From Corallococcus macrosporus DSM 14697 (GTDB lineage: Bacteria > Myxococcota > Myxococcia > Myxococcales > Myxococcaceae), in contig NZ_CP022203.1 in NCBI RefSeq assembly GCF_002305895.1, positions 4,938,501 to 5,002,500 of the forward strand: a stretch of DNA of 64,000 nucleotides, written 5' to 3'. Positions 1-11,120 of the stretch are shown one piece after another. Both the position numbers and the translations under genes were made by a program. The notes beneath the pieces are model-generated. The model did not search any database and was not told the DNA's origin. It saw only the letters and a program-made list of their open reading frames with translations. Position 1 is the stretch's first letter. Every line of letters starts with the position of its first letter.

Positions 1-1112
1 ATCTGGCAGTGGGCGCCGAGCAGGCAAAGCAGCCGGTGCAGCTCGGCGTATTCGAAATGCGTGCTCGGCGCGGCCCCGTCGGCGCTCCCTCCCGGCGGCG
101 CGAGCGAGCGGATGTCCATGCTCAGGTACACCCGCGGACAGTCCGCCAGACAGCGCACCAACGCGTCCTCGCCGCCCGCGTCCCTCAGCTCCGGCGCGGA
201 GAGCACGGTGAGGCCGGCCAGGGCCCGGTCCACCGAGCCGATGGCGCCCAGGTGCACATAGCGCGTCACGCCAGGAAGGCCGAGCGCGTGCGCCGGCAAG
301 GTGCCCGGTGAGATGAAGGAAGGATGGACGGCGCCACGTTCGCGCGCGTCAGCCGCGATCCTGACGACCGCGATCGGCTGTCGCGCCTGCAGACGGCGGA
401 TGGCCGGAAAGGCCACGGACGCATCGCCGCCGATCAGCACGGGCAGGCTGCCGGCCCCCGTCACCGTCTCCAACACGGCGTCGACGCGGCCGAACAACGC
501 CGCCTGCTCCTCCCCTCGGGTGATGAACACGTCGCCACAATCGGAGATCGTCGCGCCTCGCAGGATGGGGCGGCGGCGGTCGGCGTCGTACCAGCCCAGC
601 GGCTTGCCGCCGTGGCGGTCCAATCCGTAGAGAATCTGCAGCGACGCTTCCCGCAGCGCCGCGGGCGCTTCGCGCGCGCCAGCGGCCGAGCGGTCGCTGA
701 GATCGTAGGCGACGCCGAGCACGACGAAGTCCGAACTCGAGGGCTCCAGCTTCTGGGCGGGCGCGTCGAACATCCGCACGGGCGCGTCCGTGAGCAGGCG
801 GCGGCTCGACGCGTGCGTGTTCTCGCCGACCAGGAACCCCTTCGCGCGCAGGCTCTCCAGCGCGGCCCCCGCCTTGGCGCCGTACCGCCCGTCGCCGAGG
901 ACGGCGCTCACGCCGCGAGGCGTCTCGAACTCGAGGAGGAGCTTGTGCAACGCGATGGGGATGCGGATCCGGGTGCCATCCAACTGCAGATAGATGGTGG
1001 CGAACTTCTCGTCGAGCTGCTCGACCCGCATCGCGGGTGAGACGACCAGCCGCACCTCGTCCGCGCCGCCAGCCGGCTCGCGAGGGTCCGTCGGAGACAG
1101 AGCGTCCGCCAT
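1..1112 (-). CDS. RRE-fused arginase-like protein with degenerate metal site (C-terminus cut by window edge)
   Basis: Open reading frame with no stop before the left edge; about 370 residues are visible. The first ~95 residues look like a PqqD-type leader-binding (RRE) domain. The rest follows the ureohydrolase (arginase/agmatinase) fold: VVLGVAYD, a GWYDAD stretch, DCGDVF, then LIGGDAS. The family metal ligands are mostly gone: the His of GGDH is Ala (GGDA), the D-A-H-x-D strand reads RIAADARE, and the SIDID strand reads SMDIR. It is therefore probably not a catalytic arginase but a substrate-binding or scaffold partner. Its ATG overlaps the stop of the upstream oxygenase gene by one base (TGATG), so it is translationally coupled and the last visible gene of the RiPP operon. 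It resembles the protein at 3124-4350 closely, including the same lost ligands. The fold call is firm; the role is inferred. Confidence 0.8.
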   Translation of the reverse strand, partial: MADALSPTDPREPAGGADEVRLVVSPAMRVEQLDEKFATIYLQLDGTRIRIPIALHKLLLEFETPRGVSAVLGDGRYGAKAGAALESLRAKGFLVGENTHASSRRLLTDAPVRMFDAPAQKLEPSSSDFVVLGVAYDLSDRSAAGAREAPAALREASLQILYGLDRHGGKPLGWYDADRRRPILRGATISDCGDVFITRGEEQAALFGRVDAVLETVTGAGSLPVLIGGDASVAFPAIRRLQARQPIAVVRIAADARERGAVHPSFISPGTLPAHALGLPGVTRYVHLGAIGSVDRALAGLTVLSAPELRDAGGEDALVRCLADCPRVYLSMDIRSLAPPGGSADGAAPSTHFEYAELHRLLCLLGAHCQ

Positions 1113-2209
1113 CACACCGCTCCAGCCGCTGCCGGCTTGAGCTCCGGCGCCGCGTCTTCCTCGAGCGCCGCCAGCAGCTCACGCCTGACCCGCGCTGACC
1201 GCTCCGGCTGCGAGCCGGCCAGGGCGCTTCGAAGGACGCAGATCATCAGCTCGCGCCCGAGCTCCGGGTCACTGGCGCCCGTCAGCGCGTCATGCACGCG
1301 GCGGTCCGGGATACGCGTGCGAATCAGCTCCGCGTTCTTCCTCGCGAACCGGCCCAGCTCGTCCCTCCAGTCCACCGACTTCGCGTACGCGCGCAGGTTG
1401 AGGGCGTTGATGAAGTCGAAGCTGACGGTGGTCGAGTCCGACAGCGTCACGACGTGGTGCGCCCAGTTCGGTCCCCAGATGAGCAGCTCCCCGGGATTGA
1501 GCAGCCCGGTCCACGGGCGGGCTTCGCGCCAGGTCGGGAACTCGTCATCGTTGGGGTTCAGGGGGTCCAGGTAGCCGACGTCCGGGTTGTAGTAGTGGCG
1601 CTTGTCCTCGGCGCTGTAGAGGATCGCCCGCTTCTGCCCCCGCAGTTGCGCCAGGTAGGCGATGACCGCGTTGTTGTCCTGGTGCAGCGGCGTGAGCGCG
1701 CCCTTCAGGCTCACGTACAGCCAGACGTGGTTGCCTGACTGGTAGTAGTACGGGATCTCGTTGTTGAAGTGCTCCAGCGGCTCCGGGAGGATGGGGTCGA
1801 GCTGCGAGAAGACCTCCTCCCGGGCATGGCGGACCAGCCGGAGGTTCCCGCTGTACAGGGGCAGGCCGAGCTCCCGCAGGAGCTGCGCGCTGCCCTTCGA
1901 CCACTTCCCCTCGAAGAGCGCCTCCACGCGCTCCGGGGCCTTGACGTACTCCAGATAGGTCCCGAAGTCGGTCATCACCTGGCACATCTTCGCCTGCTTC
2001 TGGGTGACGAACTGCGGCGCGCCAGCCGTCACCGGCAGGTGCCCGAACATCTCGCTGAGCGCGTCCAGCTCGCCCCACCGCTTGCTGGCGAGCCACTTGT
2101 CAGTGAAGCCCCGCACCACGCAAGGCTGCCGGGTGAGCACGTCCGGCGACTTCTCCACCAGTTGGCGGAACGCTTCGAGGTCATAGGCGGGAATCGGTGT
2201 GGCTTCCAT
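1112..2209 (-). CDS. JmjC/cupin-8-like Fe(II)/2-oxoglutarate oxygenase
   Basis: 365 aa. Residues ~110-270 match the JmjC-like cupin family: LHQDNN supplies the HxD pair (H176, D178) and GPNWAHHV the distal His (H251 or H252), together a full Fe(II) facial triad. TTVSFDF after it matches the last strand of the cupin barrel. Enzymes of this family hydroxylate protein or peptide side chains using 2-oxoglutarate and O2. It lies between an arginase and an arginase-like gene in the RiPP operon, 42 bp after the arginase stop and overlapping the next start (TGATG), so a peptide hydroxylase acting on the precursor is likely. The ATG is preceded by GAGGGA about nine bases upstream. Substrate and site are unknown. 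No RRE-like domain is obvious, so delivery of the peptide may depend on partners. Confidence 0.85.
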   Translation of the reverse strand: MEATPIPAYDLEAFRQLVEKSPDVLTRQPCVVRGFTDKWLASKRWGELDALSEMFGHLPVTAGAPQFVTQKQAKMCQVMTDFGTYLEYVKAPERVEALFEGKWSKGSAQLLRELGLPLYSGNLRLVRHAREEVFSQLDPILPEPLEHFNNEIPYYYQSGNHVWLYVSLKGALTPLHQDNNAVIAYLAQLRGQKRAILYSAEDKRHYYNPDVGYLDPLNPNDDEFPTWREARPWTGLLNPGELLIWGPNWAHHVVTLSDSTTVSFDFINALNLRAYAKSVDWRDELGRFARKNAELIRTRIPDRRVHDALTGASDPELGRELMICVLRSALAGSQPERSARVRRELLAALEEDAAPELKPAAAGAV

Positions 2210-2251: not shown

Positions 2252-3127
2252 CTAGCTCGCGCGGTTCGAGCGCCCGAGCTGGGAATGCCATTGGTCCGCG
2301 GCCTCGCGAATGAGCTCCGCGGCGATCGCGCTCGTCGAGGTCTGGACGTCGAGCACCGGGTTGACCTCGACCACGTCGAGCCCCGAGATCCTGCGTTCGC
2401 GCACCAGCGCGCTCAGGATCCGGCGCACGTGCAGCGGGTGCAGGCCATCTGGCACCGGGGCGCCGGTGCCGGGCGCATGGAACGGGTCCACCGCGTCGAT
2501 GTCGATGGAGACGTAGCAGGGCAGCGCTTCCGGCACGAGCGCCAGGAGCTCGGCGTCGGACAGGTTGCGCGCGCGGGCCGAGGTGATGACGACGGCGTCA
2601 TCCCCCAGCGAGCGCTCGTCGCCCACCGTGATTCCCCGGTAGCCGATCTGCACGATCCTGCGCACGCCGGGCAGCTTCGACAGCCTGCGCAGCACCTGCT
2701 TGTGGTCGTGGAACGGCGTCCCCTCCCACGGGCTGAAGTCCGTGTGCGCGTCAATCCAGACCAGGCACAGGTCCCCGGCGGACTGCAGCACCGACACGGG
2801 CGCGTAGCTGATGGAATGGTCGCCGCCGAGGAACAAGGGGCGCAGGCCGCGCGCCAGGATGTCCTTCGTCGTCGCCGCCAGCCGCTCCAGGTAGCGCGCC
2901 AGGTTCGCCGGCCCCGCCACGTCGCCCCAATCGCAGCCAGGGACCCGAGGGGGTGCCAGGAGCTGGCTCGCCTCGCGTATCGCCGCGGGGCCCTTCGCCG
3001 CGCCGCGAGCGATCGGGTTGCCCAGGTCCGTCGGCGCGCCCACGACGCAGAGCGCGCCCGGCTCAGCCAGCGCCAGGCTGCGGTCCGGCCAGCCGAACAG
3101 CGACGCGCGCGGGCTTGCTCCGCTCAT
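2252..3127 (-). CDS. Complete arginase/agmatinase-family hydrolase, proposed peptide arginase
   Basis: 291 aa, the usual length of the family. All metal-binding motifs are present: GGDHS (H104), WIDAHTDF (D126, H128, D130) and SIDIDAVDP (D209, D211), so a binuclear Mn site should form. The family hydrolyses guanidino groups to release urea, giving for example ornithine from arginine. Its ATG overlaps the stop of the RRE-bearing pseudo-arginase gene (ATGA, 3124-3127). It is the only one of the three arginase homologues here with intact ligands and the only one without an N-terminal PqqD-like domain. In this operon I infer that it converts arginine residues of the precursor core to ornithine, guided by its RRE-bearing relatives. 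A free arginine or agmatine enzyme is the alternative. The family call is firm, the peptide substrate inferred. Confidence 0.92.
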   Translation of the reverse strand: MSGASPRASLFGWPDRSLALAEPGALCVVGAPTDLGNPIARGAAKGPAAIREASQLLAPPRVPGCDWGDVAGPANLARYLERLAATTKDILARGLRPLFLGGDHSISYAPVSVLQSAGDLCLVWIDAHTDFSPWEGTPFHDHKQVLRRLSKLPGVRRIVQIGYRGITVGDERSLGDDAVVITSARARNLSDAELLALVPEALPCYVSIDIDAVDPFHAPGTGAPVPDGLHPLHVRRILSALVRERRISGLDVVEVNPVLDVQTSTSAIAAELIREAADQWHSQLGRSNRAS

Positions 3128-4350
3128 CGCTCGGCCCCCCCATGGCCGCGGGAGGCCTCCATCGCGGTCAGCGCGAGGTCGCAAGCGACCGCCGCGGACA
3201 GGTGCGCGAGCCTTGACCGCGTGTCCAGGCCAACGAGGTCGATGCCGACGATGCGGTGCCGCTGGCCCAGCGCGGAGATCACCCCCCTGAGCTCGGCCTG
3301 TGACAGCCCGGCCGACACGCCGTGCTCGTCCGTCCGCATGCACTCCGGCGTCGTGAGGCCAAGGTCGATTGACAGATGCACGTCGCCGCCCCAGTCACAC
3401 GCCAGCGTGTCCAGGGGGGCGCGGCGCAGCGCCTCCACGTCGTACACCGTCACCCGGCCGCTCGGGCTCGCGGGGGGCGGCTTCAGCCCGCCCAGGCTCA
3501 CGAACCGCTCCACCCCTTCGAGTTCCAGGAGACGGGCCGCGACCTCCTCCGCCCCGATGACCTCGGCGCCCGACGCGGGAGACGTCGCCAGCTCTGCGGA
3601 GAGCCGGACGACGGTCAGCGGCCCCCGGCGTCGGAGCGCCGCGGCAACGGCGTACGTCACCGAGCCGTCCCCGCCAAGGACGACCGGCACCGCCCCCTCC
3701 CCCAGCGTCCCGAGGACCGAGGCGATCCGTCCGAACAGCTCGGCCTGCTCCTCTCCGTATTCGACGTAGACGTCGCCAGCGTCGGCCAGCGAGGCGCCCC
3801 GCATGATCCAGGTCTCCCGGTTCGCGTCGAACCAGCCGTTGGGACGGCCGTCGGCGATTCGCATCCGGTAGAGGTAATCGAGCGACTTCTGCCGGATCGC
3901 CGTCGGCGCGGCGCGGCAGTCGACGGCGCCCGCGAGGTCGTAGGGCACGCCCAGCACCACGAAGTCGCTGGCCGCGCCGTGGGCCGGCGCGTTGCAGAAG
4001 CGGTAGGGCACCGTCGTGCGCAGCCGGTCCGCGCGGACCGCGCGCGGCGCGTCGGCGTCGAGGAGGAGCCGCTTCTCCAGCAGCCGGCCCACCTGCGCGC
4101 GCGCCCCGGCCGCGGCGCCAGGCGGGACGACCTCCTCCAACCTGCGCGGCTTCGCGAACGCCTTCAGGAACTGGTAGGCGGCGGTGGACAGCTTCATGCG
4201 CGCCGCGGTGGCCGTATTCGCGACCGTGACGTGGGTCGCGTCCTGGCTCTCGAGGATCAAGTCGTCGGAGAGCACCAGGCGAATCGTGGACAGGTCGCCC
4301 CACCCCGCGGGTGAATCAGGCGCGTCGACTGAAGAATCCGGGTTGCGCAT
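3124..4350 (-). CDS. RRE-fused pseudo-arginase
   Basis: 408 aa. Residues ~20-100 resemble a PqqD/RRE winged helix (VLSDDLIL ... MKLSTAAYQFLKAF ... GRLLEKRLLL). Residues ~128-400 follow the arginase fold (FVVLGVPYDLAG, AGDVYVEYGEEQAELFGR, VVLGGDGSVTY). Nearly every metal ligand is replaced: GGDH is GGDG (229), the D-A-H-x-D strand reads VVRLSAEL (247-254), and SIDID reads SIDLG (only D329 kept). So it is very unlikely to hydrolyse guanidines itself. It is coupled to the intact arginase (ATGA overlap) and starts 21 bp after the M50 gene. A leader-binding subunit of a hetero-oligomeric peptide arginase is the simplest reading. It is a paralogue of the gene at the left edge. A weak GAGAGCGAG lies just before the ATG. 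Confidence 0.85.
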   Translation of the reverse strand: MRNPDSSVDAPDSPAGWGDLSTIRLVLSDDLILESQDATHVTVANTATAARMKLSTAAYQFLKAFAKPRRLEEVVPPGAAAGARAQVGRLLEKRLLLDADAPRAVRADRLRTTVPYRFCNAPAHGAASDFVVLGVPYDLAGAVDCRAAPTAIRQKSLDYLYRMRIADGRPNGWFDANRETWIMRGASLADAGDVYVEYGEEQAELFGRIASVLGTLGEGAVPVVLGGDGSVTYAVAAALRRRGPLTVVRLSAELATSPASGAEVIGAEEVAARLLELEGVERFVSLGGLKPPPASPSGRVTVYDVEALRRAPLDTLACDWGGDVHLSIDLGLTTPECMRTDEHGVSAGLSQAELRGVISALGQRHRIVGIDLVGLDTRSRLAHLSAAVACDLALTAMEASRGHGGAER

Positions 4351-4371
4351 GCTCGCTCTCGGCCAGGCCGC

Positions 4372-5670
4372 TCAGGCCCCGCTGTGCCGGACCTGGGCCC
4401 GGAACGCCCAGAGCTTGCCAAGCAGATTGACCGCGCGTGTCGCCAGGCTCCACAGCGTGACGGCCGCGCCCGCGAGCATCAACGAACGCCAGAAGACCTC
4501 CAGGAACACCTTGAGCACCTCGATCAACGGCGCTCCCTCTCCAGCCGCCTGGACGAAGGCGCGCAACAACGCGGGGTACTCCTTGGCGATGCTCAGAATC
4601 ACGAACTGGAAGATCACCTTCAGGATGTAGGCCAGGAACACCGTGCCCAGCGCCGTGTAGATGCCAAGCGCCCACCTGGCCTTGCGGGTCAGGTTGACCT
4701 TCGGCCCTGGCTCCCGGACGCCAAAGAGCCTGCCTCCCAGGTGCTGAACCCAGAGCATCTGCTGCTTGCGCAGGTTCACGATGCCGAAGAAGTCGCTCAT
4801 CAGCCAGTAGCCGTCCATGCGGAGGAACGGGTTGAAGGTCGTCGCGATCGAGAGGTCGATGATGACGAAGGCGACGAGGAAGATGATGTCCCCGGTCCGC
4901 AGGAACAGCCCCAGCATGGCGAGCAGGAAGATCGATTCGAAGTAGACCCCGCCGATGTCCACGACCGCGCGCTGCCGCCGCGGGAGCTTCCAGGCGTCCG
5001 AGACGTTCGTCCAGAGGACCGTATAGATGATGTAGACGCCCCAGCCGATGGTCATCCGCCGGCAGCCGTAGTGAGCGGCGGCGCTGGCGTGCCCGAACTC
5101 GTGACAGAGGGTCCCCAGGGTGGAGAGCAGCATCACGGCCAGGACGCCCGTGGCGTCGAGCTGGCTGAAGTCGGCGCGCTGAGCCGTGAGCAGCACACCG
5201 TAGACGTAGGCGTGCGAGAGCACCGCCAGGATCAAGCCCAGCACCAGGGCCGGCGTCTTGAACATGAAGCCCAGGCGCCGGGCAATCGGCTCGACGACGC
5301 TGGGCGGGATGATGGGGAGCTTGATGAACAGGAACGCGCGCTTGGGCTGTGAGCTGACGCCCGCCCGCGAAGCGTCCTGATCCGGGTGAACGAGGATGCC
5401 CTTGGGGAGCAGCGACTTCTCGACCAGCCGCCGGAGCCAATCCCGCTCGAAGCTCCCCTGTCCGCGCTGCAGAAACGCGTCAATGGCTTCGTCAATGGTG
5501 CGGACCCCGTCGAACTCCCGCACCAGGTCCATGTAGGCCGCCGGCAGCGCGAAGCGCACCGCGTCATTCCCATCAGGGACGGCGCACATCACCATCGGCT
5601 TCGCCGCATCCGAGTCGAAGTCGGATACCTCGAGGTGGGGATTGGCCAGTGGGCGGGCGGGTTGCGTCAT
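4372..5670 (-). CDS. PqqD-like domain fused to M50-type membrane metalloprotease
   Basis: 432 aa from the ATG at 5670, chosen because AGGGAG stands at a good distance before it and 33 further in-frame upstream residues have no such site. Residues ~12-97 look like a PqqD-type domain. From ~118 on there are several hydrophobic helices, with HEFGH (190-194) in one and NPFLRMDGYW (280-289, Asp286) in another; these are the two metal-site motifs of the site-2-protease (M50) family. This architecture recurs in RiPP clusters, where the M50 protein is thought to cut or export the peptide. It is the first gene after the precursor, separated from it by a strong hairpin, so a leader peptidase or exporter acting at the inner membrane is a reasonable role. 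No ABC transporter is visible, which adds weight to an export-coupled function. Confidence 0.85.
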   Translation of the reverse strand: MTQPARPLANPHLEVSDFDSDAAKPMVMCAVPDGNDAVRFALPAAYMDLVREFDGVRTIDEAIDAFLQRGQGSFERDWLRRLVEKSLLPKGILVHPDQDASRAGVSSQPKRAFLFIKLPIIPPSVVEPIARRLGFMFKTPALVLGLILAVLSHAYVYGVLLTAQRADFSQLDATGVLAVMLLSTLGTLCHEFGHASAAAHYGCRRMTIGWGVYIIYTVLWTNVSDAWKLPRRQRAVVDIGGVYFESIFLLAMLGLFLRTGDIIFLVAFVIIDLSIATTFNPFLRMDGYWLMSDFFGIVNLRKQQMLWVQHLGGRLFGVREPGPKVNLTRKARWALGIYTALGTVFLAYILKVIFQFVILSIAKEYPALLRAFVQAAGEGAPLIEVLKVFLEVFWRSLMLAGAAVTLWSLATRAVNLLGKLWAFRAQVRHSGA

Positions 5671-5732
5671 GGTCCGAGCTCCCTGAACTCGCCTTCCAGG
5701 CAGACCCTTCGGGCGCTTCGATCGAACTGCGA

Positions 5733-5758
5733 CCGGATCGGACCCAAGCCCGATCCGG
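5733..5758 (-). terminator. Strong hairpin just downstream of the precursor gene
   Basis: Perfect 9-bp inverted repeat, CCGGATCGG / CCGATCCGG, with an 8-nt loop, 37 nt after the precursor stop codon. No T-run follows on the minus strand, so it is more likely a partial terminator or an RNA-stabilising 3' structure. Such structures often raise the amount of precursor mRNA relative to the modifying-enzyme genes downstream. Confidence 0.6.
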
Positions 5759-5795
5759 CCTAGAAACAATCGGCGTTCGCCGAGTGTCCTACAGC

Positions 5796-5945
5796 TTACT
5801 CCACCGAGCGCTCGACCTGGGCGTCGCAGCGGCCGTTGCAGCGGCCGGCCAGCTCCAGACGGTCCTCAAGCTCGATGATCTCGAACTCGTCGATCAGGAG
5901 GCTCTCGTTCTTCTCAACCGTCACGGCGTTCTTGTCGTTGTTCAC
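5796..5945 (-). CDS. Putative RiPP precursor peptide, 49 aa
   Basis: Short gene read directly from the sequence: GTG start at 5945 with a near-perfect AGAGGAG six bases upstream, TAA stop at 5796-5798. The N-terminal ~32 residues are acidic (ESLLIDEFEIIELEDRLELA), typical of a leader recognised by PqqD-like domains. The C-terminal ~17 residues form a distinct core, AGRCNGRCDAQVERSVE, with a twin GRC repeat: two Cys (36, 40) and three Arg (35, 39, 46). It lies among radical SAM, acyltransferase, M50, arginase and oxygenase genes, with hairpins on both sides. The Arg residues are plausible arginase targets (ornithine formation) and the Cys residues plausible radical SAM crosslink sites. The leader/core border near LAGR is a guess. 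There is no signal peptide. Reading frame, start signal and context make this convincing; the product is unknown. Confidence 0.85.
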   Translation of the reverse strand: MNNDKNAVTVEKNESLLIDEFEIIELEDRLELAGRCNGRCDAQVERSVE

Positions 5946-6064: not shown

Positions 6065-7336
6065 TCACCCGTGGCACCGGACGGCGTCCCGCGACGCGAG
6101 CTGGCAGATCAAGCTCCACATCCGCGAGCGCACGTCGCTCGGGTGCTGGTCAAGCCACTGCAGGTCCACGCCCCGGCCTTCGTCCGCGAGGCGCGCCGCC
6201 AGGTCCATGATGGCGAGCGGAAACTTGTAGCAACGCCCGGTCATGGCGTCGGTCCAGACGATGTCGTTCTCACCCGGGAGCTCGACGATGCGCCGCGTGT
6301 CCATCACCACCCGGCCGCCCGTCCCCAGGTGCTCGCGCAGGCGCTGCTCAATCTCGTTGGCGGGATGCGTGACGGAGGGGGCCGGGAGCCGCCACTGGTG
6401 GAACAAGTCGCCGCCGCACCACTCGTCGGCATATGCGTTCAGCGCCTCGCCCAGGAAGGTGTACGCGCTCTGCACGGCCTCCTCGACGAAGCGCTCCGCG
6501 TCCGCGCCGCGCAGCGGCCCGCCCGGATCCAGGACCGGCCCCAGCCTGCACGCCCGCTGGCCGTCGAGGTTGTGGGCCACCATCGGGATGACCGGAGAGC
6601 CGAACCTCGCCGCCATGACGAACAACCCGTTCTTGACCCGGCACTCGCTCCCTAGGAGCGCGACCTTCGAGCGCCGCGCGTCTCCCCGCGTCCCGTCGTT
6701 GCCCGTGTTGCCGTCAATCGTGGAGAAGACCAGCTCGCCCCGTGCGAGCGCCTTGGCCAGCGAGATCGCGCCCGCGCGCGCCTCGACGTCCACGAATTCG
6801 AAGTGTTTCCAGAGCGCCGCGCCCGGGTTGCTGGCCCTCGCGGTCCAGTAGTCGTTGTACGAATCGCTGGCGAGCGGCAGGTGCGTCGCGATCCCCGCAT
6901 GCGCGAACTCGGAGGGGAGATAGCGCATGTGACCGAAGTGGAAGGACACCCCCACCACCCCACGGCCGCGCTCGAGCAGCGCGCGCACCTGCTCCAGGTG
7001 CGCCCCGTTCACTTGCGGCGCGTCAGGCGCCGACGTCAACCGCGGCAGGTAATGCTGATGGTACTCCCACCCGCCGAGGATCTTGCTGATCGCGGCGGCG
7101 CGCGCGGCTTGCGCAATCCGCTCCCGTGGCCAGTCACGGCCGAACAGCGACACGAGGTTGAGCCGGTAGGCGCGCAGTCCGAACGGCAGGAGCTCATCGT
7201 CGCTGAGCGAATGGACCAGGTCGAACACCTCGCTCCTGCTCACGTCGCTCCGGGCGAGCAGGTGCTTGACCCGATCGACCCTGGACGCGGTGGGGATGGC
7301 GGCGTTCTCGGGGGCAGCCCCCTGGGTCATCGTCAT
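6065..7336 (-). CDS. LpxL-like acyltransferase with C-terminal PqqD-like domain
   Basis: 423 aa. Residues ~115-310 resemble the lipid A / lysophospholipid acyltransferase (LpxL/HtrB) family: GVVGVSFHFGHMRYLP corresponds to the catalytic block and KVALLGSECRVKNGLFVMAARFGSPVIPM to the later substrate block. The expected H-x4-D/E dyad is not clear after H133 or H136, so the active site is unusual. Residues ~335-423 look like a PqqD/RRE winged-helix domain (RRIVELPGENDIVW ... LICQLASRDAVRC). No long hydrophobic anchor is obvious. The start overlaps the radical SAM stop (ATGA, 7333-7336). A leader-binding domain on an acyltransferase suggests that the RiPP is fatty-acylated, or that the fold has been reused for other peptide chemistry. 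The family call rests on motifs only. Confidence 0.7.
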   Translation of the reverse strand: MTMTQGAAPENAAIPTASRVDRVKHLLARSDVSRSEVFDLVHSLSDDELLPFGLRAYRLNLVSLFGRDWPRERIAQAARAAAISKILGGWEYHQHYLPRLTSAPDAPQVNGAHLEQVRALLERGRGVVGVSFHFGHMRYLPSEFAHAGIATHLPLASDSYNDYWTARASNPGAALWKHFEFVDVEARAGAISLAKALARGELVFSTIDGNTGNDGTRGDARRSKVALLGSECRVKNGLFVMAARFGSPVIPMVAHNLDGQRACRLGPVLDPGGPLRGADAERFVEEAVQSAYTFLGEALNAYADEWCGGDLFHQWRLPAPSVTHPANEIEQRLREHLGTGGRVVMDTRRIVELPGENDIVWTDAMTGRCYKFPLAIMDLAARLADEGRGVDLQWLDQHPSDVRSRMWSLICQLASRDAVRCHG

Positions 7337-8868
7337 GGCGCGCTCTGCTTGGCGTCGGGTGGCGTCTGCGACTCCCGCTCCTCTCCCCCGCTGTCTGCCT
7401 CAGGCAAGGCCGCTGCATCAGCGGCGGCGCGCTTCGCGCCATCCTGGGTGGCCTTGAAGTAGTCCACCATCTCTCGCTTGGCGGTGAAGCGGATGGTCGG
7501 GCAAGGACGCTGGTTGTAGTCCATGCGGATCTGCGGACAATGCACGCCCTGGCACGCCGGCAGGTTGTGGCAGCTCTGGCATCCGGTGTCCCGCTCGAAG
7601 GCCGGCTCGGTCCACAGGGCCATCTTGTCCGTGTTCAAATCGAGCGTGCCGTCGGGGAGGATCTTCCCGACGATGTTGCGGTCCTTCTTGTTGAGATCGA
7701 TGGTGCACTTCATCAGGTCGCCATGGGCGCCCACGATGAAGTTGTAGGGCCTGACCGCGTAGCACACGTCCGTCCCCACCCTGGCGCCGGGCCGCCACCC
7801 GCTGGTGACGCGCAGCCCCAAGGTCCGGGCCGCGGCCTTCAGCCGCATGTGCGCGGAATGGGATTCGTCCTTGCCGCAGACGTCCAGGTTGGCGTCGTTG
7901 CTCCCGCCCCAGCGTCCCACCGCGTGGAAGGAGACGGTGAAGCGATCATCCCCGCTGAACCTCTCCTGGAGGGACTTCAGGAAGGTCTCCAGCCCTTCGA
8001 CATTCGTCTTGGCGAAGTTGACGCGGATGACGACCGAGAAGTCGTCCTCGCGCTCGCTCAGCTTCACCAGGTTGTCGTAGATCGTCTGGTATGTGCCGCC
8101 GCCGTCGCGCGCCGGCCTGTGCTGGTTGTGGTGCTCCGGCAGGCCGTCCAGGGTGATCTGGAAGTCGGTGATGCCCCACGACAAGAGGCGGCCGGCCACG
8201 TCGTCCGTCAGCAGGTAGCCGTTCGTGGTCATGTGGCTGGAGAACCGCAGCCCTTCGCGCTTCGCAGTCTCCGCGAAGAACGGCGCCAGGTCCTCGATGG
8301 CCTCCATCCCGTACAGCGGCTCGCCCCCGAACCAGGAGACGTTGAACTCGCGCAAGGACCGGACACGGCTCTCCACGAGCTTCTTGATGCTCGCGCGCAC
8401 CTCGGGGCGCATCGTGCCGCGCTTGAAGTCCTCGTAGCAGTACGTGCACCGGAAATTGCAGTCCTCCGAGGCCAGCAGGATCAGCTCGAGGATGTCACTG
8501 CGGTGATTCGCCTGGCCGAACGCATACTGGACCCGGCGCAGCTCATCGGCCTCCTTCTCAATCAGGAAGCCTCTCTTGGAGAGGTAGCCGGTGATGCCGT
8601 CGTCGCTGGCGGTGATGCCCTGCTGGCTGAGCAGCTTGAGCACCGACTCGCGTTGCGCCGGGCGGAACGCGTTCAGCGACCCTGAGTAGGTGTTCCACAG
8701 CAGCAGCCAGCCGTCGTCCGTGAGCGCGTGGACATTGAAGCGCGAAGGCTTCCATTGCCGCTTCAAGGCGACCGGCTTGAGAGGGGTGCTCGCGGGTGTT
8801 TCACCGACCGAAGCGCTCGGCATCCGATCGAGAGGGGACTTGAAGAGGATGTCCTTGCCCGTTGCCAC
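7333..8868 (-). CDS. SPASM-domain radical SAM peptide maturase
   Basis: 511 aa, GTG start at 8868 with AAGGAGGT a few bases upstream. Residues ~40-115 form an N-terminal RRE-like region. C137-x3-C141-x2-C144 (CNFRCTYC) binds the SAM-cleaving 4Fe-4S cluster, followed by FGGEPL and TTNGYLL motifs. A Cys-rich SPASM domain (~370-465, including CQSCHNLPACQGVHCP) holds auxiliary clusters. A hydrophilic Ala/Glu-rich tail closes the protein. SPASM maturases install thioether, C-C or C-O crosslinks in leader-bearing peptides; here the likely substrate is the precursor at 5796-5945, with its two core Cys. It is the first gene of the operon and overlaps the next gene by four bases. The bond type cannot be read from sequence. 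Confidence 0.93.
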   Translation of the reverse strand: MATGKDILFKSPLDRMPSASVGETPASTPLKPVALKRQWKPSRFNVHALTDDGWLLLWNTYSGSLNAFRPAQRESVLKLLSQQGITASDDGITGYLSKRGFLIEKEADELRRVQYAFGQANHRSDILELILLASEDCNFRCTYCYEDFKRGTMRPEVRASIKKLVESRVRSLREFNVSWFGGEPLYGMEAIEDLAPFFAETAKREGLRFSSHMTTNGYLLTDDVAGRLLSWGITDFQITLDGLPEHHNQHRPARDGGGTYQTIYDNLVKLSEREDDFSVVIRVNFAKTNVEGLETFLKSLQERFSGDDRFTVSFHAVGRWGGSNDANLDVCGKDESHSAHMRLKAAARTLGLRVTSGWRPGARVGTDVCYAVRPYNFIVGAHGDLMKCTIDLNKKDRNIVGKILPDGTLDLNTDKMALWTEPAFERDTGCQSCHNLPACQGVHCPQIRMDYNQRPCPTIRFTAKREMVDYFKATQDGAKRAAADAAALPEADSGGEERESQTPPDAKQSAP

Positions 8869-9272: not shown

Positions 9273-9473
9273 TCAAAAGCACACAGGAAACTGCTCACAG
9301 AGGCAGCTGGAACCCATTGAATAGCACCGATAGACACAGGTGCAGCTCGCATCGGCGCACTGATCCGGACACCGATCAATGCTGGCTTGAGCCTCCGCTG
9401 GCCGGACCGTTCCCAGCATGCCTCCGAAAACAACGCCCACGACAAAGACCCACTTCTGGATTCCCTTGCGCAT
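9273..9473 (-). CDS. Small secreted cysteine-rich peptide
   Basis: 66 aa from the ATG at 9473, which has GAGAGG seven bases upstream; a longer frame from a TTG has no such site. Residues 1-28 form a clear Sec signal peptide (basic MRKGIQK, hydrophobic core, AEA before the cut). The mature part (~38 aa) has eight cysteines arranged as C-x3-C-x4-C-x-C-x3-C-x6-C-x-C-x4-C, so four disulfides are possible. I do not recognise the family; it resembles in general form defensin- or toxin-like disulfide mini-proteins. It lies between crtI and the RiPP operon on the same strand, with about 400 bp separating it from the latter, and is probably independent. The signal peptide argues against it being a substrate of the cytoplasmic radical SAM enzyme. 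Confidence 0.7.
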   Translation of the reverse strand: MRKGIQKWVFVVGVVFGGMLGTVRPAEAQASIDRCPDQCADASCTCVYRCYSMGSSCLCEQFPVCF

Positions 9474-9587
9474 GACAAATCCTCTCAATGGGACTGCGCG
9501 GCAAATCCTACCACACGAACCAACCCAGGATAGCCCCCCATCCGTGGCTCAACGCGCCATCACGTCCCACGCCCGTCGAAGCGTCCG

Positions 9588-11120
9588 CTACGCCAGTGGA
9601 ATCACGGCGTCGACGATCTTCGCGGAGCACAGCACAGCGGGGAGCCCCGCCCCGGGATGCGTGCCCGCCCCGACCATGTAGAGGCGTTCCACGTCCTCAC
9701 TGCGAGCCTGGGCGCGAAGGAACGTCGTCTGAAGCAACGTTGGCGCGAAGCTGAACGCGGCCCCCCGGAATGAGCGCAGCTCGTCGCGGAAGTACTCCGG
9801 GGTGACCATCCGCGACGTCACCAGCTCCGCGCCCAGCCCTGGCAGCACGGTCCGCGACAGCCGTTCCTCCAGCGCCCTCCGGAATGACTCCGCCCGATGC
9901 CTCCACTCCGAGCCCGTCCCCAGATGCGGCACTGGCGCCAGCACGTAGAAGGCGTCATGCCCGACCGGAGCCAGCGCCGCGTCCGTCGCCGTGGGCCTGT
10001 GCAGGTACAGCAGCGGGTCTGGGGACGGCTGCCCCGGCCCCTTCAGCCCCGAGAACATCCCCCGGAAGTCCTTGCCGAACAGCAGCGTGTGGTGCGCCAC
10101 CTCCGGATACTGACGCCGCGTCCCGAAGTACCAGAGGAACGCGCTCATCGAGTACCGCGCCCGGTCGATGCGCTCGTCCGTCCAGTGCTTCCGGACATGC
10201 CCGGGCAACAGGTACCGGTACGTCCACGCCGCATCCGCGTTCGACACCACCACGTCCGCGGCCAGCCCCGTCCCATCCCCGAGCCGAACCCCCGTCGCCT
10301 TCCGCCCCTCCAGCGTGATCTCCGTCACCTCACTGCCGTAACGGACCTCGCCGCCCAGGGACTCCAGCAACGCCACCAGGCCGCGGACCAGGGCCCCCGT
10401 GCCGCCCACCGGGAAGAACGCGCCCCAGCGGCGCTCCACGAATTGAATCGACGTGTACACCGCGCTCGCGGTCGCGAAGGGGCTGCCGCCGATCAGCAGC
10501 GGATGAAAGCTCAACGCCTGCTGAAGCCGCTCGTCGCGGATGTGCTTCGACACCAGCCCGAACATCGACCGGAACGCCTCGTCCCGCACCAGCGCGGGGG
10601 TGAACGGCGCCAGGCTCAGCACGTCCGGCACCGGCGTGCTCATCAGCGTGCCAATGCCCGCCTCGTACATCCGCTCCACGCGGGCGCACAGCGACAAGAA
10701 CCCCGCCTCATCCCTGGGAGACAGCCGGCGCACGGACTCGCGCATCGCCTCGCGGTCCGTGTGGTAGTCGAACGTGGAGCCGTCCGGGAACCGCATCCGG
10801 TACAGCGGCGCCACGGGCCGCAGCTCCACGTAGTCCGCCATGCGCTGGCCCGCGAGCGCCCACAGCTCTTCCAGCAGGTGCGGACACGTAATCACGGTGG
10901 GCCCCGCGTCGAACGTGAAGCCCTCCTGCTGGAAGGCGTTCGCCCGCCCGCCCGGTCCGTCCCTCCGCTCCAGCACCGTGACGCGCCAGCCACGCGCCGC
11001 CAGCCGGATGGCCGCGGCCAGTCCACCGAAACCACTGCCAATCACGAGCGCGCGGCGTCCGCCGCTTCGCGCGGCCACACCAGCCATCCCAGAGGGTCTC
11101 AGCACGGTGAGACGATCCAT
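9588..11120 (-). CDS. crtI: Phytoene desaturase (CrtI family)
   Basis: About 510 aa. It begins with a Rossmann FAD-binding motif, ALVIGSGFGGLAAAIRLA, then GPGGRANAFQQEGFTFDAGP, diagnostic of CrtI-type carotenoid desaturases, and ends with the C-terminal FAD motif YMVGAGTHPGAGLPAVL. The enzyme removes hydrogens from phytoene on the way to lycopene-type carotenoids at the membrane. No other carotenoid gene is near. In Myxococcus xanthus the phytoene dehydrogenase gene carC is also unlinked to the main carotenoid operon, so this may be its counterpart (inference). The start is uncertain: ATG at 11120 is used, ATG at 11087 is also possible; neither has a strong ribosome site. It is divergent from the hybrid kinase gene. 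Confidence 0.9.
   Translation of the reverse strand: MDRLTVLRPSGMAGVAARSGGRRALVIGSGFGGLAAAIRLAARGWRVTVLERRDGPGGRANAFQQEGFTFDAGPTVITCPHLLEELWALAGQRMADYVELRPVAPLYRMRFPDGSTFDYHTDREAMRESVRRLSPRDEAGFLSLCARVERMYEAGIGTLMSTPVPDVLSLAPFTPALVRDEAFRSMFGLVSKHIRDERLQQALSFHPLLIGGSPFATASAVYTSIQFVERRWGAFFPVGGTGALVRGLVALLESLGGEVRYGSEVTEITLEGRKATGVRLGDGTGLAADVVVSNADAAWTYRYLLPGHVRKHWTDERIDRARYSMSAFLWYFGTRRQYPEVAHHTLLFGKDFRGMFSGLKGPGQPSPDPLLYLHRPTATDAALAPVGHDAFYVLAPVPHLGTGSEWRHRAESFRRALEERLSRTVLPGLGAELVTSRMVTPEYFRDELRSFRGAAFSFAPTLLQTTFLRAQARSEDVERLYMVGAGTHPGAGLPAVLCSAKIVDAVIPLA

Follow-up and report, generated by a model that had tools for sequence, protein, structure and literature searches.

What a 49-residue peptide is doing inside an operon of radical S-adenosylmethionine (SAM), acyltransferase, protease, arginase and oxygenase genes is the question raised by a 64,000-nucleotide stretch of the Corallococcus macrosporus DSM 14697 genome (NZ_CP022203.1, positions 4,938,501 to 5,002,500; hereafter the window, numbered from its first letter, with negative positions to the left of it). 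A first-pass annotation had taken the open reading frame (ORF) at 5796..5945 on the minus strand for the precursor gene of a ribosomally synthesised and post-translationally modified peptide (RiPP). On re-reading, its ORF, GTG start, 49-aa length and sequence (5945-5796, VNNDKNAVTVEKNESLLIDEFEIIELEDRLELAGRCNGRCDAQVERSVE) were all exact, as was its Shine-Dalgarno sequence, GAGGAG, 6 nt 5' of the GTG. The peptide comprises a leader with the motif LLIDEFEIIELEDRLELA, a core GRCNGRC(D) and a variable tail. The answer we favour, with slightly better than even confidence, is that the operon yields one nearly invariant, lipopeptide-like product with thiomorpholines, ornithines (Orn) made by paired arginases, hydroxylation and acylation, released by M50 cleavage and exported by a MacB/FtsX system.

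Comparison between genomes indicates that the ORF is a real gene, far beyond chance, because homologues are conserved at the same place in other loci. The annotation had staked its claim on such a conserved small ORF in related clusters, and homologues occupy the same site in seven loci outside the window, in Myxococcus vastator, Erythrobacter, two Luteibacter genomes, Fulvimonas, a Sphingomonadales genome and one further genome. Among loci encoding radical SAM relatives, of which the best 80 of 118 were examined, 6/80 (L001-L006 in our numbering of loci; genomes are numbered G) carry the other operon genes together with precursor homologues, the small-ORF scan covering L001-L036, and whole-genome profile searches added one intact locus (L099, genome G209) and one decayed (L100, G230). 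Window included, eight loci hold 11 intact precursor copies, both Luteibacter genomes and G209 contributing a pair each. All 11 contain RCNGRC, and in all 11 the second repeat is likewise GRC, with G, D or N before the first Arg; Asn37 is invariant and position 41 always Asp or Asn. In M. vastator ATG replaces the GTG of the window gene. An alignment of nine copies has 22 invariant columns, and in its 24-codon conserved block (nine sequences) the variable sites at codon positions 1/2/3 number 6/1/21. The ratio of nonsynonymous to synonymous change (dN/dS, NG86 method) is 0.027/0.101 between the window and M. vastator, and 0.010/0.204 and 0/0.116 for the two Luteibacter pairs.

Residues preceding LLID and following GRC(D/N) vary freely. 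Given this lack of conservation beyond GRC(D/N), we favour (A)GRCNGRC(D/N) over the whole of GRCNGRCDAQVERSVE as the probable product core. The C-terminal variability anticipated by the annotation holds for the tail but not for the core, and the twin GRC repeat that it singled out is the conserved business end of the peptide. The arrangement found here, a short gene with a conserved leader adjoining maturases, is that of RiPPs in general and supports its precursor reading; we regard the gene and its conservation as solid. Directly 3' of the gene lies a hairpin with a 13-bp stem (5731..5760, minus strand, from RNA folding), and strong hairpins, unrelated in sequence, follow the precursor in each of the seven loci folded (eight downstream stretches, window included); these may raise precursor expression over that of the enzymes.

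The neighbouring activities named by the annotation, arginase, radical SAM, oxygenase, acyltransferase and protease, are all identified, but the arginase family is represented by four genes rather than one, two of which have lost their metal ligands, there are two JmjC oxygenases, and the operon passes the left edge of the window by ~2.1 kb. In the eight intact loci, apart from the exceptions given below, the order is radical SAM/SPASM, acyltransferase, precursor(s), M50-like protease, argA, argB, JmjC1, argC, argD, JmjC2. All genes of the window's operon with a strand given here are on the minus strand. The four arginase-family proteins match PF00491 or one another, and the three arginase ORFs in the window match PF00491 only, not PF12640, the family of OspR-type peptide arginases. 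Two of them, argB (2252..3127, minus strand, its start codon overlapping the argA stop) and argD (about -1001..-108, outside the window), keep the GGDH, DAHTD and DxD motifs in 8/8 loci each. The other two, argA (3124..4350, minus strand) and argC (1..1115, complete at -111..1115, minus strand, running off the window), have lost the His of GGDH, DAHTD and DxDxxDP, again in 8/8 each, and both carry an additional N-terminal domain, in argA a putative winged helix-turn-helix or RiPP recognition element (RRE)-like one. In L099 argB, Glu replaces the Asp after DxD, a residue we take not to be a metal ligand. In the predicted argA model (mean predicted local distance difference test score, pLDDT, 73) residues 115-405 adopt an agmatinase-type fold (Z up to 26.7), preceded by a separate N-terminal domain.

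Each pseudo-arginase is therefore accompanied by a live arginase and an Fe(II)/2-oxoglutarate (2OG) oxygenase, and two such modules accompany two Gly-Arg-Cys repeats; the duplication of these live/dead modules we also consider solid. In a tree of 31 sequences a single branch sets each of argA, argB, argC and argD apart from the rest (support 89/87, 100/98, 100/99 and 95/90, respectively), argA adjoining argC and argB adjoining argD, and JmjC1 and JmjC2 separate likewise; long branches are flagged in this analysis, and the argA branch has the weakest support. Because each of the six genes forms one side of a branch, the trees indicate that the module was duplicated before the operon spread among Myxococcota, Alpha- and Gammaproteobacteria, both copies having been retained.

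The oxygenases JmjC1 (1112..2209, minus strand) and JmjC2 (about -2149..-998, outside the window) are of the Cupin_8/JmjC type and keep HxD and the distal His (8/8 and 7/7; L006 JmjC2 reads WGHHV). Their sequence profiles come nearest to the arginyl hydroxylase JMJD5, which also provides the closest solved relatives of JmjC1. The radical SAM/SPASM maturase (7333..8868, minus strand) has TIGR04463 as its nearest NCBIfam model, scoring 198.7 bits, under the 525 cut-off and hence outside that family; other near models include PapB-type and further thioether maturases. The M50-like intramembrane metalloprotease (4372..5670, minus strand; HEFGH and NPFLRMDG) lies similarly outside its nearest model, the daptide protease NF041824, with 87.3 bits against a cut-off of 300.

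Between maturase and precursor lies a putative acyltransferase (6065..7336, minus strand). No Pfam match was found for it even at E 5, and a PDB sequence search gave nothing credible. Its predicted structure (pLDDT 81) resembles PatA and LpxM (Z 21.9 and 20.6), members of the LPLAT fold. LPLAT acyltransferases have the catalytic motif HX4D/E, and this protein reads HX4R in 8/8 loci, as does a distant relative, P0011 of genome G007, judged by eye. Its C-terminus (residues ~337-423) matches, again in the predicted model, the lasso-peptide RRE TbiB1 (Z 8.5, 80 residues, 2.7 Å), ThcOx (Z 8.8, 81 residues, 2.0 Å) and PbtF (Z 7.2), and has the β3-α3 winged-helix topology of an RRE. The strands predicted at 342, 350, 359 and 369 and helices at 374, 392 and 400 recur in the same order and at nearly the same spacing in the argA N-terminal domain (strands at 24, 31, 40 and 50; helices at 56, 71 and 77).

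From this gene content we infer a series of chemical steps, the pairing of subunits, a cleavage site, the acylated amine and the allotment of one module to each repeat, which together make a specific, testable proposal. RRE-like domains on several enzymes would bind the leader motif, and at each Arg-Cys the radical SAM enzyme would turn the Cys into a thioether, most likely by joining its sulphur to the α carbon of the preceding Arg, giving a thiomorpholine. Two heteromeric arginases, argA with argB and argC with argD, each consisting of a catalytically dead, leader-binding subunit and a live one, would then convert both Arg to Orn, and the oxygenase of each module would hydroxylate its Orn. 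An amine would be acylated by the acyltransferase, the M50 protease would cut beside LELA to remove the leader, and the product would be exported by a pump of the MacB/FtsX type. We count in favour of this lipopeptide pathway that in Fulvimonas (L004), which is without JmjC2, a TauD-type 2OG oxygenase comes next after argD, in the position of the missing enzyme. A bolder version, which we regard as rather improbable, has two tandem enteropeptin-like thiomorpholines on hydroxyornithines of an acylated peptide, each warhead being finished by its own module (a dead RRE clamp with a live arginase, and one 2OG oxygenase), repeats and modules having been duplicated together.

Several points weigh against the pathway as drawn. 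It is read entirely from genes. The structure comparison of argA spans residues 115-405, so the likeness of its N-terminal domain to an RRE comes from the predicted spacing of strands and helices. When five putative RRE domains were compared by profile only those of argA and argC matched well; an RRE shared among the radical SAM, M50 and acyltransferase domains is unsupported by this comparison, and a single RRE profile common to all five was given up. Acyl transfer by an HX4R enzyme that lacks the HX4D/E acid is uncertain. The likeness to enteropeptins discussed below is drawn from the core, the arginase family and the presence of a radical SAM enzyme. Some of the NGxC precursors considered next are paralogous to one another, and no cluster pairing one module with one GRC turned up, no search having been aimed at such clusters.

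The position of the thioether bears on the strongest alternative, to which we allow a minor, real chance: the same RiPP with β or γ thioethers of the ranthipeptide type, from Cys to Asn, Asp or other residues, all other steps being unchanged. The PapB-type and other thioether maturases among the nearest models of the radical SAM enzyme speak for it, as do the invariant Asn37 and the constant Asp/Asn at position 41. The related precursors of L007-L012 (Polyangium, Acidobacteriota, Thermoanaerobaculum), whose TIGR04463-like radical SAM genes are 49-54% identical to that of the window, tell against it. They share with it acidic leaders ending ELDDLDLA.. and NGxC cores but differ in having GG leader ends, and no arginase, oxygenase, acyltransferase or M50 homologue was found at these six loci. 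NGxC occurs in 6/10 of their precursors, with x = N, F, S, V or Y (0/5000 shuffles), and a motif kept while x changes suits a thioether blind to the side chain of x, such as one to its α carbon. The pairing of arginase with Gly-Arg-Cys, as in enteropeptin, likewise favours the thiomorpholine.

For the arginases, the dead subunit may on our reading bring the leader to the live one. Genes for a live and a metal-ligand-less subunit stand in tandem, the gene arrangement of a heteromeric ureohydrolase, and in the excerpts of PMC11399263 available to us metformin hydrolase is a solved active/degenerate ureohydrolase heterohexamer, encoded, like the pairs here, by tandem live and degenerate genes. 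It differs in being a catabolic enzyme for a small molecule, with no RRE-like domain mentioned in those excerpts, and in that the complex proposed here is deduced from genes. The pseudo-arginases might instead be stand-alone leader-binding chaperones or partners of the hydroxylases, with homo-oligomeric live arginases. This is unlikely in our view: each pseudo-arginase does precede both a live arginase and an oxygenase, so that either could be its partner, but the argA and argB genes overlap (3124/3127), the two folds are the same, and the metformin hydrolase precedent is a mixed hexamer.

A third alternative has the core as a metal-binding or redox peptide (CNGRC), or as a scaffold from which a small product is clipped, instead of a crosslinked lipopeptide. 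A cofactor, metallophore, signal or other fixed product would be expected to have an invariant core, and M50 proteases release single modified residues in pearlins, according to the part of PMC10885120 available. The distribution of the operon points the other way. The precursor profile was found in 2/96 Myxococcaceae genomes and 2/193 across the phylum (overlapping sets), in 5/233 of the Luteibacter family including the decayed locus and 3/299 of the Luteibacter order (a different draw), in 1/298 of the Erythrobacter family and in 1/337 of the class of the Sphingomonadales genome, draws that included already known loci, so that the rates are not independent estimates. In addition, the operon sits in a strain-specific segment, since two Myxococcus relatives have about 2.7-3.0 kb in place of ~19 kb of the window and its flank (-10048..9278, seen from the window and L084), a stretch containing chemotaxis-like genes and the RiPP operon. 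Such patchiness (2/96, 5/233, 1/298) and strain specificity fit a secondary metabolite better than a cofactor, and we consider the metal or redox peptide unlikely. No plasmid-borne copy of the precursor or acyltransferase was found, and GC content gives no sign of foreign origin. That the ORF arose by chance or encodes a small protein outside the RiPPs, as its shortness and GTG start might suggest, has next to no likelihood, being already refuted by its conservation, with codon pattern and fixed neighbours also against it.

Beyond JmjC2 the window's operon is followed by an FtsX/MacB permease (about -4688..-2070, outside the window); in L006 a MacB/FtsX permease sits between argB and JmjC1, and MacB/FtsX, ABC or HlyD genes lie near 7/8 loci (window, L002-L006 and L099, those of L005 and L099 judged by likeness to scanned L003 and L004 proteins), the L001 stretch ending too early to tell. 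L099 has an ATP-grasp protein and a TauD-type oxygenase appended (3335-5432, minus strand) with JmjC2 kept, the TauD-type protein being 63% identical to that of Fulvimonas. Upstream of the operon two alphaproteobacterial loci, L002 (703-5253) and L117 (1939-9379), carry ABC/HlyD exporter genes, in L117 also a MacB/FtsX permease, together with a sigma-54-type response regulator and a histidine kinase; prompted by these, sigma-54 promoters were sought upstream of the precursor and radical SAM genes and were no better than in shuffled sequence. In the window itself a 66-aa Cys-rich ORF with a signal-peptide-like start (MRKGIQKWVFVVGVVFGGMLGTVRPAEAQA...; 9273-9473, minus strand) lies between a crtI-like gene and the radical SAM gene. 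A PHROGs search with three unassigned proteins gave no match.

Smaller relatives were also seen. In G007, of the window's family, a minimal cluster (L118, 8324-11077) consists of an M50-like protease, an RRE-type HX4R acyltransferase and a precursor with leader DEFQLTELESRLEM and a core ending GYCCECVGQTMCE. In G064, of the window's genus, the leaders of two precursors read ELERR(I/L)E(L/M)A (L129, 4656-8816); an M50-like frame lies nearby, as do isoprenoid-synthase-like and glycosyltransferase-like proteins (both by eye). In G646 four tandem precursors (..ELEQRIAPVKCDKNPEAPEC..) stand between radical SAM-like (by eye) and M50-like genes (L130, 6990-10485). The G064 and G646 leaders read ELERR(I/L)E or ELEQRI, and because precursors with such leaders adjoin M50-like genes in all three genomes, ELExR(L/I)E may be a mark for the M50 protease. 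The decayed locus L100 has its radical SAM gene split by an insertion of ~1.7 kb, a frameshifted argA and no further operon genes in the stretch; its precursor core is changed to ..WKCCNGSCNG, without Arg, and its arginase genes are absent or broken. We had considered this a natural experiment and dropped it, as with a split radical SAM gene it may be mere decay.

The peptide seems to represent a RiPP class that has yet to be described. The first-pass annotation knew of no RiPP class with this gene set, and likewise no paper describing the precursor with these enzymes was found in open-licence PubMed Central (PMC) text, a search that did not cover subscription papers or preprint servers. Two of the enzyme arrangements are apparently undescribed: the pairing of live arginases with pseudo-arginases that carry a leader-binding-like domain, and the fusion of an RRE to an LPLAT acyltransferase. 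The symmetry of two repeats and two modules lends itself to a clean test of the way in which one enzyme set is allotted to one site in a RiPP pathway, and the recurrence of an unchanged core in different phyla suggests a specific product that merits isolation. One candidate relative, the streptococcal 'GRC' subfamily, was set aside: its chemistry, in the accessible text of PMC13361665, is a thiolactone macrocycle and the name is coincidental.

Closest in chemistry are the enteropeptins of the KGR subfamily of radical SAM RiPPs, as they appear in the accessible sections of PMC12395415 and PMC12703449. Their product, MK-G-Orn(Me)-C-PPS, has a thiomorpholine joining Cys to the α carbon of the preceding Arg/Orn, and their PF00491 arginase acts only after that ring has formed. 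Common to both systems are the Gly-Arg-Cys core, a radical SAM enzyme and a PF00491 arginase, which in enteropeptins makes Orn at the Arg next to Cys; the operon here differs in its two Arg-Cys units, its four arginase-family genes in two live/dead pairs, its occurrence in other phyla, its hydroxylases in place of a methyltransferase and its acyltransferase. For the enteropeptin-type Fe-S methyltransferase that makes N-methylornithine, no second radical SAM or methyltransferase was found among the operon genes examined. The biphenomycin pathways (pbs, bpm/bip), in the portions of PMC12257519 and PMC12707348 at hand, use an arginase and then a JmjC/cupin-like enzyme that hydroxylates Orn, as proposed here, and likewise have RRE partner proteins and a metalloprotease. 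They differ in an FHAFRF core, a multinuclear non-haem iron oxidative enzyme (MNIO), a B12 radical SAM enzyme and a UPF0489 arginase, with no acyltransferase or pseudo-arginase named in those portions, and the window has neither an FHAFRF precursor nor the MNIO or B12 radical SAM enzyme. Acylation recalls the selidamides, whose Orn side chains are acylated (PMC12703449, in part), whereas the acyltransferase here has the LPLAT fold, and an M50-like RiPP protease is common to daptides and epipeptides, the score against the daptide model being under its cut-off. The operon would thus join chemistries known from separate pathways, the arginase acting beside a thioether at Gly-Arg-Cys in enteropeptin, the arginase and Orn hydroxylation of biphenomycin, and acylation.
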